DNA of 64,000 nt from Corallococcus sp. EGB (lineage in GTDB: Bacteria; Myxococcota; Myxococcia; Myxococcales; Myxococcaceae): NCBI RefSeq assembly GCF_019968905.1, contig NZ_CP079946.1:4650001-4714000 (forward strand). The letters run 5' to 3'. Position 1 is the first letter of the stretch. Every line of letters begins with the position of its first letter. The notes under the pieces were generated by a model. That model did no database searches and was not told the origin of the DNA. It worked only from the letters and a program-made list of their open reading frames with translations. Below, piece after piece: positions 10,066 through 14,365 of this stretch. A program made the translations under genes and the position numbers.

Positions 10066-10842
10066 ATGCACGGTTCGCCGGATACCGACCACCACGCGCG
10101 CATTCCCCAGGCCAGCCGCATCGAGCGCGCGCGGGTGCTGGTGGTGGGGGCGGGCGGCCTGGGCTGTCCGGCGTCGCTCGCGCTGGCGCAGGGCGGTGTG
10201 GGCCACCTGACGCTGGTGGATCCGGATCGGGTGGACGTGACGAACCTGCCCCGGCAGCTCTGGCACCGCACGCGGGACGTGGGCCGCTTCAAGGCGGAGT
10301 CCGCCGCCGGGGGACTCCTGCGCGCCTTCCCCGGCTTGAGCGTGGAGGCCCTGCCGGCGCGGCTGGACGCGGACAACGCCGAGGCGCTCTTCCGCGAGCA
10401 CGACCTGGTGGTGGACGCCACGGACGGCGTGGCAACCAAGTTCTTCCTGTCCGACGTGGCGGTGCTCACGGGCGTGCCGCTGGTGTACGGCGGCGTGCTG
10501 CGCATGCAGGGGCAGGCCCTGCGCATCGACCCCGGCGGTCCGTGCCTGCGCTGCCTCTACGAGGACGTGCCGCCCCCGGACGCGGTGCCCACCTGCGCGC
10601 AGGCCGGCGTCCTGGGCGCGATGGCGGGGCTCATCGGCGCGGTGCAGGCGCTGCTCGCGCTGGAGCTGCTGGCGGGCGCGGCGAGGGGCCCCCGCGGAGT
10701 GGCCACGCTGCACGTGCTCGACGGCGAGACGCTGGAGGGGCGCACCGTGAAGGTGACGCGCGCGCCCGGCTGTCCGGGGTGCGCCATCCAGACGCTGCCC
10801 CCGTTCCCTTCGTCCCAGGAGGACACCGCATGCCCGACGTGA
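10066..10842 (+). CDS. E1-like ATP-dependent activating enzyme (MoeB/ThiF/HesA family)
   Basis: The ATG at 10066 gives 258 residues with an intact adenylation site: glycine loop VVGAGGLGCP, VDPDRVDVTNLPRQLWH carrying the arginine finger, GRFKAESA, and DATD. Two CxxC pairs (PCLRCLYED and GCPGCA) form the structural zinc site, and TCAQAGVLGAMAG matches the MoeB segment. Such enzymes adenylate the C-terminal glycine of a MoaD/ThiS-like carrier so sulfur can be loaded as a thiocarboxylate. A carrier ending in GG is encoded 230 bases downstream, so partnership is likely. First gene of a five-gene run; the next gene overlaps by 13 bases. Confidence 0.88.
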   Translation: MHGSPDTDHHARIPQASRIERARVLVVGAGGLGCPASLALAQGGVGHLTLVDPDRVDVTNLPRQLWHRTRDVGRFKAESAAGGLLRAFPGLSVEALPARLDADNAEALFREHDLVVDATDGVATKFFLSDVAVLTGVPLVYGGVLRMQGQALRIDPGGPCLRCLYEDVPPPDAVPTCAQAGVLGAMAGLIGAVQALLALELLAGAARGPRGVATLHVLDGETLEGRTVKVTRAPGCPGCAIQTLPPFPSSQEDTACPT

Positions 10843-11069
10843 CGGCGACGTTGGACATCACCCGCGAGGTGTGTCCGATGACCTACGTGCGCACCAAGCT
10901 GAAGCTGGAGTCGCTGCCCCCGGACGCGCTGCTGGAGGTGCTGCTCAAGGGTGACGAGCCCCTGAAGAACGTGCCCCGCAGCGCGAAGGACGAGGGCCAC
11001 GACGTGGTGTCCCTGGATCCGCGAGGGGACGGCACGCACCGGTTGATCATCCGCAAGCGGGGGAGATGA
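10830..11069 (+). CDS. TusA-family sulfurtransferase-like protein
   Basis: A 79-residue protein with the TusA/SirA fold signature: an N-terminal strand and EVCPMTYVRTKLKLESL, in which the Cys-Pro pair is the sulfur-carrying site of the family, then a second strand-helix-strand. TusA-type proteins hand persulfide sulfur between a desulfurase and acceptor proteins. The gene overlaps the end of the E1-like gene by 13 bases and is followed 3 bases later by the MoaD-like gene, so it probably feeds sulfur into the carrier encoded here. No desulfurase gene lies in the window. Confidence 0.85.
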   Translation: MPDVTATLDITREVCPMTYVRTKLKLESLPPDALLEVLLKGDEPLKNVPRSAKDEGHDVVSLDPRGDGTHRLIIRKRGR

Positions 11070-11072
11070 GCG

Positions 11073-11345
11073 ATGGCCACGATCCGCATTCCGACGCCGA
11101 TGAGGACGCTCACGCGCAACCAGCCCGAGGTCCAGGCCACCGGCGCCACCGTGGGCGAGGTGCTGCGCGACCTGGAGGCGCGCTACCCCGGCATGGGCGC
11201 GCGCCTCTTCGACGACAAGGGCGCCGTGCGCCGCTACGTGAACGTCTTCCTCAATGACGAGGACATCCGCGCGCTCAGGTCCCTGGACACGCCGGTGAAG
11301 GACGCGGACCGGCTCACCCTCATCCCCGCCATGGCGGGGGGCTGA
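11073..11345 (+). CDS. MoaD/ThiS-like sulfur-carrier protein
   Basis: A 90-residue ubiquitin-fold protein: strand MATIRIPTPMRTLT, helix VGEVLRDLEARYPGMGARLF, RRYVNVFLNDEDIR, and a terminal LTLIPAMAGG. The exposed Gly-Gly C-terminus is the hallmark of carriers that are adenylated and converted to a thiocarboxylate. ARYPGMGARLFDDKG with the central YVNVFLN is characteristic of the MoaD/CysO group. It lies 3 bases after the TusA-like gene. No molybdopterin genes (moaE, moaA) are adjacent, so a role in amino-acid sulfur delivery is as plausible as cofactor synthesis. Confidence 0.88.
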   Translation: MATIRIPTPMRTLTRNQPEVQATGATVGEVLRDLEARYPGMGARLFDDKGAVRRYVNVFLNDEDIRALRSLDTPVKDADRLTLIPAMAGG

Positions 11346-11359
11346 AAGGGCAGGGCGTC

Positions 11360-11992
11360 ATGGCGCTGCGCGAGGATCAGATTCTCCGCTACTCCCGGCA
11401 GATCCTCCTGCGGGACGTGGGCGGGCGCGGGCAGGAGGCGCTGCTGGCTGGCGGCGCGCGCGTGGACGGGCTGGGCGCGTCCGGCCTCACGGCCACCGCG
11501 TACCTGGCCGGCGGCGGCACCCCGGTGTCGGGTGTGGGCTCGCTGACGATGGGGCCCTGGTCGCCGGGGTTCCTCGCGTCCGCGAGCGACGTGGGACAGC
11601 CGGTGGCGGAGGTGCTGGCGCGCGTGCTGCCGGAGGTGAACCGGGACGCGGTGGGCACGCCCGGCGGCGGACTGCTCGCGGAGCTGCCCGCGGCCTGGAG
11701 CGGCGAGGCCCCCTGGGTGGCGCTCGGCGGCGACGGCATGCGCGGCGCGGTCGTCTTCCGCGGCCCGGACGGGTGCGTGTGGTGCTTCGGTGAGACGGTG
11801 CGCCACCTGGGCACGCCGCCGGATGGAGCCCTGGGCGTGGCCCTCGGCGCCCTGGGCGCGCTGGTGTTCCAGCGGCTGCGGCTGGGCCTGGGCACGTCGC
11901 TGGGCGGACGGTGGCTGAGCGCCCCGGGCGCGATGACGGACCTGGAGCTCCGCCGGTGCTCGCGCTGCGCGGCCGCGGAAGCGAAGCCCTGA
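11360..11992 (+). CDS. Degenerate E1-like (ThiF/MoeB-related) protein, probable pseudo-enzyme
   Basis: A 210-residue protein starting LREDQILRYSRQILLRDVGG, the classic N-terminus of MoeB/ThiF enzymes. The glycine loop is eroded (ARVDGLGASGLTATAYLAGG), the NLxRQ arginine finger and the ATP-contacting DxxD are missing, and the middle is Gly/Ala-rich and shortened. Two CxxC pairs survive (GCVWCFGE and RRCSRCAA), so the structural zinc site is probably kept. I infer a non-catalytic scaffold or partner for the intact E1 at 10066. The frame is open throughout and in operon context, so a simple pseudogene is less likely. Confidence 0.7.
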   Translation: MALREDQILRYSRQILLRDVGGRGQEALLAGGARVDGLGASGLTATAYLAGGGTPVSGVGSLTMGPWSPGFLASASDVGQPVAEVLARVLPEVNRDAVGTPGGGLLAELPAAWSGEAPWVALGGDGMRGAVVFRGPDGCVWCFGETVRHLGTPPDGALGVALGALGALVFQRLRLGLGTSLGGRWLSAPGAMTDLELRRCSRCAAAEAKP

Positions 11993-12444
11993 GCCAGGAC
12001 GCCCCACCGGAAGTCCTCGCGGAAATGCTCCGCCACCTGGAGGCCGCGTGGCCCCTGGAAGGCTGCGGCGTGATCCTCCGGAGCGGGGACGGGGAGGGCG
12101 ATTGCTGGCGCGTCGTCCCGCTGCCCAACACCTCCCCTACGCCGCGCGTCGCCTACGCCTTCGCGCCAGAGGCGTGGCTCCAGGTCTGCCTGGACGCGGA
12201 CGCGCGAAAGGAGGCGGTCGTGTGCGTCTTCCATTCACACGTGGACGCCCCCGCCGTCTTCTCCGCGGAGGATCGCCACCAGGCCGCGCCCTCGGGAATC
12301 CCACTGCTGCCGCGCGTGTCCTACGTCGTGGTCGCCATACGCGGAGGCCGTGCCGCCTCTGCCTCGCGGTCGCTCTGGAGCGCGGGGGGTTTTCAATCCG
12401 TTCCGCTTGCATTGGCGGATTTCAGGTTTGAAAAACCCGTGTAA
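11956..12444 (+). CDS. JAMM/MPN zinc metalloprotease (M67 family)
   Basis: The complete JAMM motif is present: Glu in WPLEGCGVIL, and HSHVDAPAVFSAED, which satisfies HxH-x7-S-x2-D for zinc binding and catalysis. GTG at 11956, preceded by GGAG at 11944, gives 162 residues and overlaps the preceding gene by 37 bases; ATG at 12025 is an alternative but would remove the first helix. Bacterial JAMM proteases next to carrier genes cut isopeptide or amino-acid adducts from ubiquitin-like carriers, as Mec releases cysteine from CysO in Mycobacterium. The same role is inferred here from linkage. Confidence 0.82.
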   Translation: MLALRGRGSEALSQDAPPEVLAEMLRHLEAAWPLEGCGVILRSGDGEGDCWRVVPLPNTSPTPRVAYAFAPEAWLQVCLDADARKEAVVCVFHSHVDAPAVFSAEDRHQAAPSGIPLLPRVSYVVVAIRGGRAASASRSLWSAGGFQSVPLALADFRFEKPV

Positions 12445-12601: not shown

Positions 12602-13372
12602 ATGGCCACCAACACTGGATTCACCCTCTGGCTGACCGGCATGTCCGGGACCGGGAAGACCACGACGGCCGCCTACATCGCGGCCCGGCTGCGCCAGGTC
12701 GGACGCAACGTGGAGGTCCTCGATGAGGGCGAACTCCAGAACGACCTGTGGGCCGGCCTCGGCGACACCAAGGACGAGCGCAACACGGTGGTGCGCCGGC
12801 TGGGCTTCGTGGCCAGCCTCCTGGCGCGCAACGGTGTCGCGGTGCTCGTGCCCGCGGTGAGCCCCTACAAGTCCAGCCGTGAAGAGGTGCGCCGTTCGGT
12901 GGGCAAGTACGTGGAGGTCTACGTGGACTGCCCCACGGAGAAGCTCATCGAGCGCGACACCACCGGCAAGTACAAGAAGGCGCTCAACGGGGAGATCCCC
13001 AACTTCATCGGCATCACGGAGCCGTACGAGCCGCCCACCTCGCCCGAGGTGACCATCTACTCCGACTCGGAGTCGGTGGAGGACGGCGGGACGAAGATCT
13101 TCCAGGCCCTGTTGGATCTGGGCCTGATGTCCACGGACGAGCTGAAGGTCATCACCGGCAAGAAGATGAAGGCCAACCCGCTCCCGGCGAAGAAGGCCCG
13201 CCGCGACGAAGAGGACCCGCCGGCGCGCGTCGCTGCCGCGAAGGCCACCAAGCCTCCCAAGGCGGACAAGGGTTCCAAGGGCGCCAAGGCGCGTCCGGCC
13301 ACCCGCGCCGCCCGCGTGGGCAAGCCGGCCCCGGCCGCCAAGAAGAAGGCCGCCAAGGGCAAGGCCCGCTAA
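12602..13372 (+). CDS. cysC: Adenylylsulfate-kinase-like protein with lysine-rich tail
   Basis: Residues 1-180 match the APS kinase fold: Walker A GMSGTGKTT (residues 14-22) and VAVLVPAVSPYKSSREEVRR, which aligns with the ISPY segment of CysC. The usual DGDNVR substrate loop is replaced by LDEGELQND, so phosphorylation of adenylylsulfate is not assured. Residues about 185-256 form a Lys/Ala/Pro-rich basic tail (ending APAAKKKAAKGKAR) resembling histone H1, absent from ordinary APS kinases. The window has no cysD or cysN partner. It may be a sulfate-activating kinase or a repurposed P-loop protein with nucleic-acid affinity. Start by ATG with GGGAG upstream. Confidence 0.7.
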   Translation: MATNTGFTLWLTGMSGTGKTTTAAYIAARLRQVGRNVEVLDEGELQNDLWAGLGDTKDERNTVVRRLGFVASLLARNGVAVLVPAVSPYKSSREEVRRSVGKYVEVYVDCPTEKLIERDTTGKYKKALNGEIPNFIGITEPYEPPTSPEVTIYSDSESVEDGGTKIFQALLDLGLMSTDELKVITGKKMKANPLPAKKARRDEEDPPARVAAAKATKPPKADKGSKGAKARPATRAARVGKPAPAAKKKAAKGKAR

Positions 13373-13462: not shown

Positions 13463-14365
13463 ATGCTGAGCCCCGAGCGGATTGAAGCCCTCTGTGAAGC
13501 GTCCCGCCCCAAGCTGGAGGCGATGCGCGATGCCCTGCGCGTGCACGGCAGCGCGCTGGTGGCGTTCTCCGGCGGAGTGGACTCCACCTTCGTCCTCCAG
13601 GTCGCGGTGGAGGTGCTGGGCGAGCGCGCCCTGGCGCTGACCGCGCTGTCCGCCTCCGTGGCCCCGGAAGAGGAGCGGGAGGCCCGTGAGCTGGCCGCCC
13701 GCCTGGGCGCCCGGCACGTCGTCGTCTCCAGCAACGAGCTGGCGAACCCCAACTACGCCGCCAATCCCACCAACCGCTGCTACTTCTGCAAGACGGAGCT
13801 GTACGACCTCTGCGAGGCGAAGCGCGCGGAGCTGGGCCTGTCCGTGGTGCTGGACGGCTTCAACGCGGACGACTTCAAGGATCACCGCCCCGGCCACAAG
13901 GCCGCGAAGGAGCACCAGGTGGTGTCCCCCCTGGCGCAAGCCGGGCTCACCAAGGATGAGATCCGGGCGTGGAGCCGCAAGCTGGGGCTGCCCACCTGGG
14001 ACAAGCCGCAGATGGCCTGCCTGGCGTCGCGCATCCCCTACGGCACGTCCGTGACGCGCGACCGGCTCCTGCAGATCGCCGCCGCGGAGTCGGAGCTGCG
14101 CGCGCTGGACTTCAAGCAGTTCCGCGTCCGCTACCACCAGGACGTGGCGCGCATCGAGCTGGCCAGCGAGGAGTACCCCCGCTTCTTCGAGGCCGGCATC
14201 CGCGAGCGGATCAACGGCGCCTTCAAGTCGCTGGGCTTCAAGTTCGTGGCCCTGGATCTGGAGCCCTTCCGCTCCGGCCGCCTCAACGAGGCCGCCGGCA
14301 TCGCCCCCGCCGCCGGGGCAGGGCAGGGGCGCGCCGAGGGCTTCAAGCTCCCGGTGGTGGGGTGA
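13463..14365 (+). CDS. larE: ATP-dependent sacrificial sulfur transferase LarE
   Basis: A 300-residue PP-loop protein: pyrophosphatase loop AFSGGVDSTF (residues 34-43), NPTNRCYFCKTELYDLC, GFNADD, and QMACLASRIPYGTSVT, whose Cys corresponds to the sacrificial sulfur donor of lactobacillar LarE. That enzyme adenylates the nicotinate-derived precursor and donates its own cysteine sulfur to build the nickel-pincer cofactor. No larB or larC is in the window, so the acceptor is unproved. AGGAG lies 6 bases before the ATG. The next gene starts within its stop codon (GTGA). Confidence 0.88.
   Translation: MLSPERIEALCEASRPKLEAMRDALRVHGSALVAFSGGVDSTFVLQVAVEVLGERALALTALSASVAPEEEREARELAARLGARHVVVSSNELANPNYAANPTNRCYFCKTELYDLCEAKRAELGLSVVLDGFNADDFKDHRPGHKAAKEHQVVSPLAQAGLTKDEIRAWSRKLGLPTWDKPQMACLASRIPYGTSVTRDRLLQIAAAESELRALDFKQFRVRYHQDVARIELASEEYPRFFEAGIRERINGAFKSLGFKFVALDLEPFRSGRLNEAAGIAPAAGAGQGRAEGFKLPVVG

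Follow-up and report, generated by a model that had tools for sequence, protein, structure and literature searches.

A Corallococcus sulfur-carrier gene cluster with a putative split, heterodimeric E1

Why should a bacterial sulfur-carrier cluster encode, next to an intact adenylating E1, a second E1-like protein without an ATP site of its own? The MoeB/ThiF-type E1s of prokaryotes have been described as symmetric homodimers, while those of SUMO and NEDD8 pair an active subunit with an inactive one; arguments on how and why E1s become asymmetric usually draw only on eukaryotes. The locus analysed here, in a window of 64,000 nucleotides (the whole stretch of DNA studied), probably encodes a sulfur-carrier relay with a split, obligately heterodimeric E1, formed by a catalytic subunit, E1a, and a pseudo-E1, pE1.

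The gene array

The five genes of the initial annotation are confirmed as open reading frames in place on the + strand. The putative catalytic E1 subunit, E1a (10066..10842, 258 aa), matches the ThiF family (PF00899, 9.5e-62) and is followed by a TusA-like persulfide carrier (10830..11069; PF01206, 2.1e-18; CPMTYVRTKLKLE), a MoaD/SAMP1-like Ubl sulfur carrier with the C-terminus AMAGG (11073..11345; ThiS family, 5.9e-16), pE1 (11360..11992, 210 aa), whose ATP-site motifs are lost and which may supply an arginine finger, and a JAMM/MPN+ metalloprotease (11911..12444; Prok-JAB PF14464, 6.3e-21; motif HSHVDAPAVFSAED). The JAMM start is uncertain, the candidates being GTG 11911, GTG 11956 and ATG 12025. 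The set is longer than first described, since the conserved array across Myxococcia runs E1a-TusA-Ubl-pE1-JAMM-CysC-like kinase-LarE, adding, also on the + strand, an APS-kinase-like (CysC-like) P-loop kinase with a Lys-rich tail (12602..13372; PF01583, 2.1e-44) and LarE, a PP-loop ATP-dependent sulfur insertase (13463..14365; TIGR00268, 8.9e-95, score 317 against a cut-off of 150). No Rfam elements, riboswitches included, reach the gathering threshold within the window.

The five genes, or recognisable remnants of them, keep the same order family-wide at identities of 50–96%, and the within-genus dN/dS of pE1 (0.142) is like that of the intact E1a (0.134); judged from the sequences, pE1 is thus under purifying selection, and the cluster is not a chance arrangement. 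In L073 and L074, TusA is naturally fused to the C-terminus of E1a; other natural fusions join Ubl to pE1, and pE1 to JAMM. Of the 44 split-E1 loci, about 20 have no recognised Ubl in the cluster, and some are without JAMM or TusA. The parts list, the sulfur-carrier reading and the resemblance to CysO-CysM-Mec that had been proposed for these genes were right.

The two E1-like proteins

E1a carries the MoeB/ThiF ATP-site residues (GAGGLG, D52, N60-L-P-R63-Q, K76 and D120) and the CxxC pairs, but consists of the ThiF domain only, with neither a rhodanese domain nor the N-terminal RYxRQ segment. Its alignment to PF00899 begins at profile position 15; all orthologues start just upstream of the first beta strand, the DNA ahead of them encodes no RYxRQ in frame, and the segment is missing from every myxobacterial cluster E1. 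In MoeB, Arg14 is the second arginine of RYxRQ and reaches into the ATP site of the partner (PMC13139853, PMC7527816).

The ThiF similarity of pE1 is weak (residues 11–96, 20.2 bits, under the cut-off of 28.1), and none of 73 pE1 sequences retains N-x-x-R-Q or D-x-x-D. What it does keep is the N-terminus: R13 in ILRYSR13QILL is the equivalent of MoeB Arg14, it is invariant together with Q25 and G53 in 42/42 non-redundant homologues, and the finger arginine persists even in homologues reduced to 88–150 aa, in which the rest is decaying. Because E1a lacks exactly the N-terminal segment that pE1 keeps, the pair resembles a single enzyme divided in two; the initial annotation, which listed pE1 as another E1-like protein beside the E1, missed this probable purpose.

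The complementarity holds across 160 loci compared from archaea to Chloroflexi: 74 combine a finger-less E1 with pE1, 82 have a full-length E1 without pE1, none has both finger and pE1, and four have neither, among which a single real exception remains (L095, with a finger-less E1 and no pE1); as the loci are related by descent, these counts are not independent events, and the tree needs about 2–3 changes. Outside the myxobacteria, every E1-TusA locus (in Nitrospirota, Methanoperedens, Chloroflexi and others) has a full-length E1 and lacks pE1, while the sole finger-less E1s among 80 outside loci are three from “Myxococcales”, each accompanied by pE1. The main group of myxobacteria does not include the L067/L072 lineages, which stand separately. 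Loss, too, is shared, for E1a, TusA and pE1 have, by comparison of the loci, gone together around a retained Ubl: L084–L087 keep Ubl-JAMM-CysC-LarE, with E1a and TusA gone from one side of Ubl and pE1 from the other, and in L043 and L046 TusA is gone, the N-terminus of pE1 is deleted and E1a is without N-x-x-R-Q and D-x-x-D.

In the proposed enzyme, E1a would bind ATP and adenylate the C-terminal glycine of Ubl, with pE1 packed on it like the second subunit of the MoeB dimer and its N-terminal helix placing Arg13 into the E1a ATP site; pE1 would then provide a dimer half and an arginine finger, neither of which E1a still encodes. No natural E1a-pE1 fusion fit for folding was found, and its place was taken by single chains joined through read-through stops. 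For these AlphaFold2, which has seen E1 dimers, gave a pTM of 0.87 (L082, E1a and pE1, 415 aa) and of 0.82 (L073, E1a and pE1 with TusA between them), values without a negative control. Both halves of both models align with UBA7/UBA1 (Z 29.1, 347 residues, 3.1 Å in one; Z 28.4, 334 residues, 3.3 Å in the other), and the E1a half of each aligns to ThiF/MoeB, so that E1a and pE1 are predicted to pack pseudo-symmetrically as the halves of an E1 dimer. From mutation, the finger arginine of MoeB and that of ThiF are reported as non-essential, and TcdA of E. coli has none (PMC13139853); for this reason, providing half of the dimer may be a more important contribution of pE1 than its arginine.

That dispensability would equally suit a self-sufficient E1a homodimer, beside which pE1 acts as a regulator or as a scaffold docking Ubl, TusA or JAMM, as would the finger-less E1 without pE1 in L095 and the Ubl-pE1 and pE1-JAMM fusions, which put pE1 beside other parts of the relay. 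We nevertheless consider this quite improbable, as it does not predict that every myxobacterial cluster E1 should lose just the segment kept by pE1, nor the joint loss and decay of E1a and pE1, and the models pack pE1 as an E1 dimer half. Two further readings of pE1, as a selenoprotein or as a pseudogene in decay, were suggested by a single in-frame TGA in several search matches and can practically be dismissed, since the TGA proved to be the natural stop codon, with which selenocysteine was rejected, and the dN/dS of 0.14 speaks against a pseudogene.

Relation to known systems

The combination of TusA with a second, degenerate E1 had not been recognised in the initial annotation. Its larger part is known: Table 1, row 4e, of Iyer et al. 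(2006) describes operons always containing SirA and a rhodanese-less E1 (PMC1779556), Myxococcus being unmentioned there. The E1 + TusA/SirA + Ubl + JAB class has thus been known since 2006, and the new element is pE1. Our locus has the rhodanese-less E1, TusA, the Ubl with its GG, JAMM and an adjacent APS-kinase homologue in common with class 4e, as well as a cysteine synthase in relatives. It differs in that the E1 appears divided between a catalytic subunit without the finger and a pseudo-E1, LarE is a constant neighbour, the APS-kinase homologue is without DGDxxR, and the genome has no sulfite reductase. Class 4e operons also carry linked genes for sulfate/sulfite assimilation, to which the APS-kinase homologue may or may not correspond here. 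With CysO-CysM-Mec of Mycobacterium it shares the Ubl carrier and a JAMM with intact motif, but there MoeZ is one full-length E1-rhodanese in place of the split E1 and TusA, and CysM has been lost from this lineage, being neither adjacent nor elsewhere in the genome. Unlike in HcyS-HcyD-HcyF, MetY lies outside the cluster.

The pairing of an active with an inactive adenylation subunit is also that of SAE1-UBA2 and NAE1-UBA3, and of UBA1 in its IAD/AAD core. The inactive subunit of SAE1-UBA2/NAE1-UBA3-type E1s carries a conserved N-terminal arginine, and pE1 appears, from its sequence, likewise to keep the arginine that is absent from the active E1a. Without catalytic-Cys half-domains or a ubiquitin-fold domain, E1a-pE1 would work like SAE/NAE rather than belong to them; it would also serve a sulfur carrier, not a modifier, and its evolutionary origin is separate. 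Fingers of this kind have precedents in MoeB Arg14, ThiF Arg11 and Uba4 Arg18, and in the yeast Tcd1-Tcd2 heterodimer it is Tcd1 that lends Arg59 (PMC13139853, PMC7527816). Tcd1-Tcd2 is the closer likeness in being a heterodimer of E1-like paralogues whose inactive member lends the arginine finger, but it is eukaryotic and acts on tRNA t6A with no Ubl or TusA, and Tcd2, unlike E1a, is not reported to be without the whole N-terminal segment (PMC13139853).

In the open-access literature we found no earlier report of a prokaryotic heterodimeric E1. The proposed split E1 of myxobacteria would be a bacterial parallel to the two-subunit E1s that serve SUMO and NEDD8 in humans, and the bacterial series covers every stage, from full-length homodimer-type E1s in sister loci through split pairs, pseudo-subunits of 88–150 residues and fusions to joint loss; the question of E1 asymmetry thus becomes testable in a simple four-protein system, which could also settle the purpose of the “non-essential” arginine finger. 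For annotators, it is a warning that a degenerate ThiF protein may be an essential subunit of the E1 encoded beside it. As a fuller picture, held only tentatively, the bacterial heterodimeric E1 would have arisen independently of eukaryotes, and possibly repeatedly, given the separate position of L067/L072, to activate a sulfur carrier fed by TusA; in the lineage of the window it would have lost its tie to cysteine synthesis and would today supply a [4Fe-4S] LarE.

The carrier and its sulfur acceptor

TusA is the presumed sulfur donor to E1a: its persulfide, replacing the rhodanese of MoeZ/Uba4, would turn Ubl-AMP into the Ubl-thiocarboxylate. The C-terminal GG of Ubl is kept in 70/70 matches. 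JAMM would release Ubl from fusions or acyl adducts; its zinc motif, HSH-x7-S-x2-D, is intact in the protein of the window and in 73 of the 75 cluster JAMM matches.

The initial annotation left the product open, seeing no CysM, MetY or MoaE adjacent, which holds within this window. Relatives close the question in part, as several have a CysM-type cysteine synthase between pE1 and JAMM; the ancestral acceptor of the Ubl-thiocarboxylate was presumably CysM, yielding cysteine. The genome search proposed at the outset found no protein of this CysM clade (at least 56% identity), the best matches being CysK-like at about E 1e-42, and the idea of an orthologous CysM encoded outside the cluster was rejected. 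With CysM gone, the most likely candidate, though still short of probable, is the neighbouring LarE, which would take the sulfur as TtuA does from TtuB. It is the only LarE of the genome above the TIGR00268 cut-off and has SGGVDS and, as ligands of the [4Fe-4S] type, CxxC (C106, C109) plus C186, the same as in the [4Fe-4S] LarE of Thermotoga. TtuA-TtuB-TtuC of Thermus is the model for a Ubl-thiocarboxylate feeding a [4Fe-4S] PP-loop enzyme, and TtuB-TtuA and [4Fe-4S] LarE provide the precedent (PMC9283937); a Ubl-fed LarE was not found reported in the literature searched.

Possibly, the acceptor here is instead MetY or another synthase, and the relay, on a reading we hold with about the same reserve, serves cysteine or methionine synthesis through a CysK/CBS-type synthase or MetY encoded elsewhere, in the manner of CysO-CysM or HcyS-MetY. 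CysM inside the cluster of relatives, the CysK-type synthases and MetY of the genome (about 7.685 Mb, some 3 Mb from the cluster; 649 bits against TIGR01326), and the O-acetylhomoserine sulfhydrylase of class 4e operons (PMC1779556) argue for it. On the other side stand the absence of the cluster CysM clade and of sulfite reductase from this genome and the lack of a genetic link between the candidate synthases and the cluster. Furthermore, free sulfide is the usual sulfur source of CysK and MetY.

A protein-modifying role, in which E1a/pE1 activate and JAMM removes Ubl as in sampylation, is unlikely. Ubl does score above the NCBIfam SAMP1 equivalog cut-off (61.7 bits against 60), and the desampylase family is the best NCBIfam match of JAMM, though below its cut-off, but there is no E2/E3, and TusA, CysM, LarE and the CysC-like kinase as neighbours point to sulfur chemistry. 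SAMP-type proteins act both as modifiers and as sulfur carriers, so the two roles are not exclusive. Far less probable is that Ubl is the small subunit of molybdopterin synthase for a distant MoaE: its fold is MoaD-like (just under the TIGR01687 cut-off), but a full-length rhodanese-MoeB is encoded elsewhere, and the genome's single MoaE comes as a fusion with a MoaD of its own, on which ground we rejected this role for Ubl and judge unlikely the exclusive use of the cluster in molybdopterin synthesis, which the initial annotation had named as what would overturn its reading.

The CysC-like kinase, found in 36/44 split-E1 loci, has LDEGELQ in place of the canonical LDGDxxR and so departs from the DGDxxR substrate motif; the canonical APS kinase motif, LDGDEVR, is found at the CysDNC locus (5.48 Mb). 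Assimilatory sulfate reduction was rejected as the setting, as the genome has no match to NIR_SIR, a domain that the control search found in 11 of 14 genomes. A strong PF01507 match adjoins CysN and the canonical CysC and, given these neighbours, is read as CysD, not CysH.

Gene array and its conservation

The five open reading frames that the initial annotation had recognised are present in the window, and its assignments (E1, TusA, sulfur carrier, degenerate E1, JAMM) all agree with the profile families found. On the forward strand they run from the ThiF-type E1, here E1a (10066–10842), through TusA (10830–11069), the MoaD/SAMP1-like carrier Ubl, which ends in GG (11073–11345), and the degenerate pseudo-E1, pE1 (11360–11992), to a JAMM protease that ends at 12444 and whose zinc motif is intact. 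Downstream of JAMM, on the same strand, lie an APS-kinase homologue, CysC (12602–13372), and larE (13463–14365), the last gene of the array.

The window's genome is complete (9.43 Mb) and belongs to the Myxococcaceae. When 193 genomes from the phylum were searched, pE1 was present throughout this family at 47–96% identity, and tblastn with all seven proteins gave the order E1a–TusA–Ubl–pE1–JAMM–CysC–LarE in nearly every locus; the array was also found in further families of the order, frequently reduced. Among 44 loci carrying both E1a and pE1 (split-E1 loci) with longer flanks, TusA occurs in 36, the CysC homologue in 36, LarE in 35, JAMM in 33, Ubl in 24 and CysM in 12; contig ends account for some of the absences. 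Within the genus, dN/dS is 0.142 for pE1 versus 0.134 for E1a. The system is real, conserved and under selection. Selenocysteine in pE1 was considered and rejected, the in-frame TGA of several pE1 matches being a stop codon.

The operon class has been known since 2006, when Iyer et al. described an E1 without rhodanese accompanied by SirA (always), Ubl, JAB and sulfur genes including adenylylsulfate kinase (PMC1779556); what seems new is the split of the E1, which does not appear in the portions of that paper or of the reviews covered by our search of the open-access literature.

Complementary anatomy of E1a and pE1

In MoeB/ThiF homodimers, an arginine of the N-terminal helix of one subunit, the “finger,” completes the active site of the other (MoeB Arg14, ThiF Arg11, Uba4 Arg18; PMC13139853, PMC7527816). 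The ATP site of E1a has its Gly-rich loop, D52, N60, R63, K76 and D120, and the finger Arg alone is missing. The E1a N-terminus lies just upstream of the first strand, and its Pfam match starts at profile position 15, that of the genome's rhodanese-MoeB, with RYRRH, starting at position 1; the finger motif RYxRQ was absent in frame upstream of E1a from all orthologues checked. Judged by sequence, pE1 is the mirror image of E1a. Neither N-x-x-R-Q nor D-x-x-D occurs in pE1 (0/73 homologues), and the second Arg of RYxRQ, Gln25 and Gly53 are invariant (42 non-redundant homologues). Its conservation is 0.65 at residues 1–30 and about 0.35 past residue 60, and in some families it is reduced to 88–150 residues, with the N-terminal piece retained.

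In locus L082 only one stop separates E1a from pE1 in a shared frame, which allowed the two to be folded as one read-through chain on a paired alignment (predicted mean pLDDT 84, pTM 0.87). This model matches UBA7/UBA1/UBA6 across both halves (VIA-align, Z 29.1, 347 aligned, rmsd 3.1 Å) and ThiF/MoeB via the E1a half; the chain of L073, with TusA between E1a and pE1 (predicted pTM 0.82), likewise matches UBA7/UBA1 over both halves (Z 28.4, 334 aligned, 3.3 Å). The models show the pairing to be sterically natural, with a predictor itself trained on such structures, and the pairing as such is predicted. Taken together, sequence and models make the E1a–pE1 heterodimer a well-supported prediction. 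Its functional parallels would be SAE1–UBA2 and NAE1–UBA3, and its closest mechanistic precedent yeast Tcd1–Tcd2; canonical E1s have catalytic-Cys and ubiquitin-fold domains, both missing from E1a–pE1, which is therefore not a member.

Several loci carry fusions. In L073 and L074, TusA is joined to the C-terminus of E1a, the place occupied by rhodanese in Uba4/MoeZ; Ubl is fused N-terminal to pE1 in L062–L064, so that a protease must cut after GG; and L090 has pE1 and JAMM in the same frame.

Association and co-loss across loci

With the E1-associated TusA as query, a scan of 84,980 species genomes yielded an outside sample of 80 loci, mainly from Nitrospirota, Methanoperedens, Methanothrix, Chloroflexi and others. 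In these loci the E1 is full length and no pE1 adjoins it, except in three “Myxococcales” loci, which have the only finger-less E1s among the 80 and pE1 in 3/3. Over 160 loci, 74 combine a finger-less E1 with pE1 and 82 a full-length E1 with no pE1; none has a full-length E1 with pE1, and four have a finger-less E1 without it (Fisher p = 2e-41, loci being treated as independent despite shared ancestry). These four are two decayed clusters (L043, L046), one locus at a contig edge (L083) and the sole real exception, L095, where the finger-less E1 lies beside Ubl, CysM and JAMM. The E1-core tree needs about three state changes, at least two of them forced by well-supported branches, with the bootstrap not settled; two pE1-bearing loci, L067 and L072, lie outside the main split group, which suggests independent splits.

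Both decayed clusters have no TusA, a pE1 with its N-terminus deleted and an E1a without N-x-x-R-Q and D-x-x-D; finger and catalysis are, as read from these sequences, lost together. In four genomes (L084–L087) only Ubl–JAMM–CysC–LarE remains of the array: the two genes that elsewhere precede Ubl, E1a and TusA, have been lost, as has pE1, which elsewhere follows it. Ubl is perhaps activated in these genomes by the rhodanese-MoeB. Several loci of family f2 (L059, L060, L061 and L071) consist of E1a–TusA–pE1–CysC–LarE, with no recognised Ubl or JAMM; in G066, one such genome, a second locus (L100) combines Ubl and a full-length E1 with JAMM and two cysteine synthases. Solitary second Ubl copies (L088, L089) lie far from any cluster in G166 and G085.

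Probable ancestral product and proposed sulfur acceptor

A CysM-type synthase occurs within the cluster in L048, L050, L052, L054, L067, L074–L077, L147, L153 and L175, mostly lying between pE1 and JAMM, and its presence inside the clusters of relatives makes cysteine very likely the ancestral product. The window's genome has no member of this cluster-type CysM clade. It has a canonical CysD–CysN–CysC locus elsewhere and no sulfite reductase (PF01077) in its complete 9.4 Mb, so sulfate seems to be activated yet not reduced by the standard route.

For this genome we tentatively propose, by analogy, LarE as acceptor of the Ubl sulfur, because the LarE of the array is the only one in the genome and has CxxC-C ligands as in [4Fe-4S] LarE, because in Thermus the Ubl thiocarboxylate TtuB supplies the LarE-related [4Fe-4S] TtuA, and because Thermotoga LarE, likened to TtuA, requires an external sulfur source (PMC9283937). 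The acceptor may instead be MetY or another synthase; the genome also has MetY, CBS/CGL-type and CysK-type enzymes, and a LarC. Its one MoaE is fused to its own MoaD (L111:1438–2265), with an internal PPVAGG that would need cleavage after GG, a cut possibly made by a JAMM.

The cluster APS-kinase homologue (12602–13372) has lost the substrate motif DGDxxR, which is replaced by LDEGELQ or variants in this genome and in nearly all split-E1 loci, unlike the genome's CysDNC kinase copy, which retains LDGDEVR; its substrate has probably changed. Its C-terminal tail is rich in Lys/Ala.
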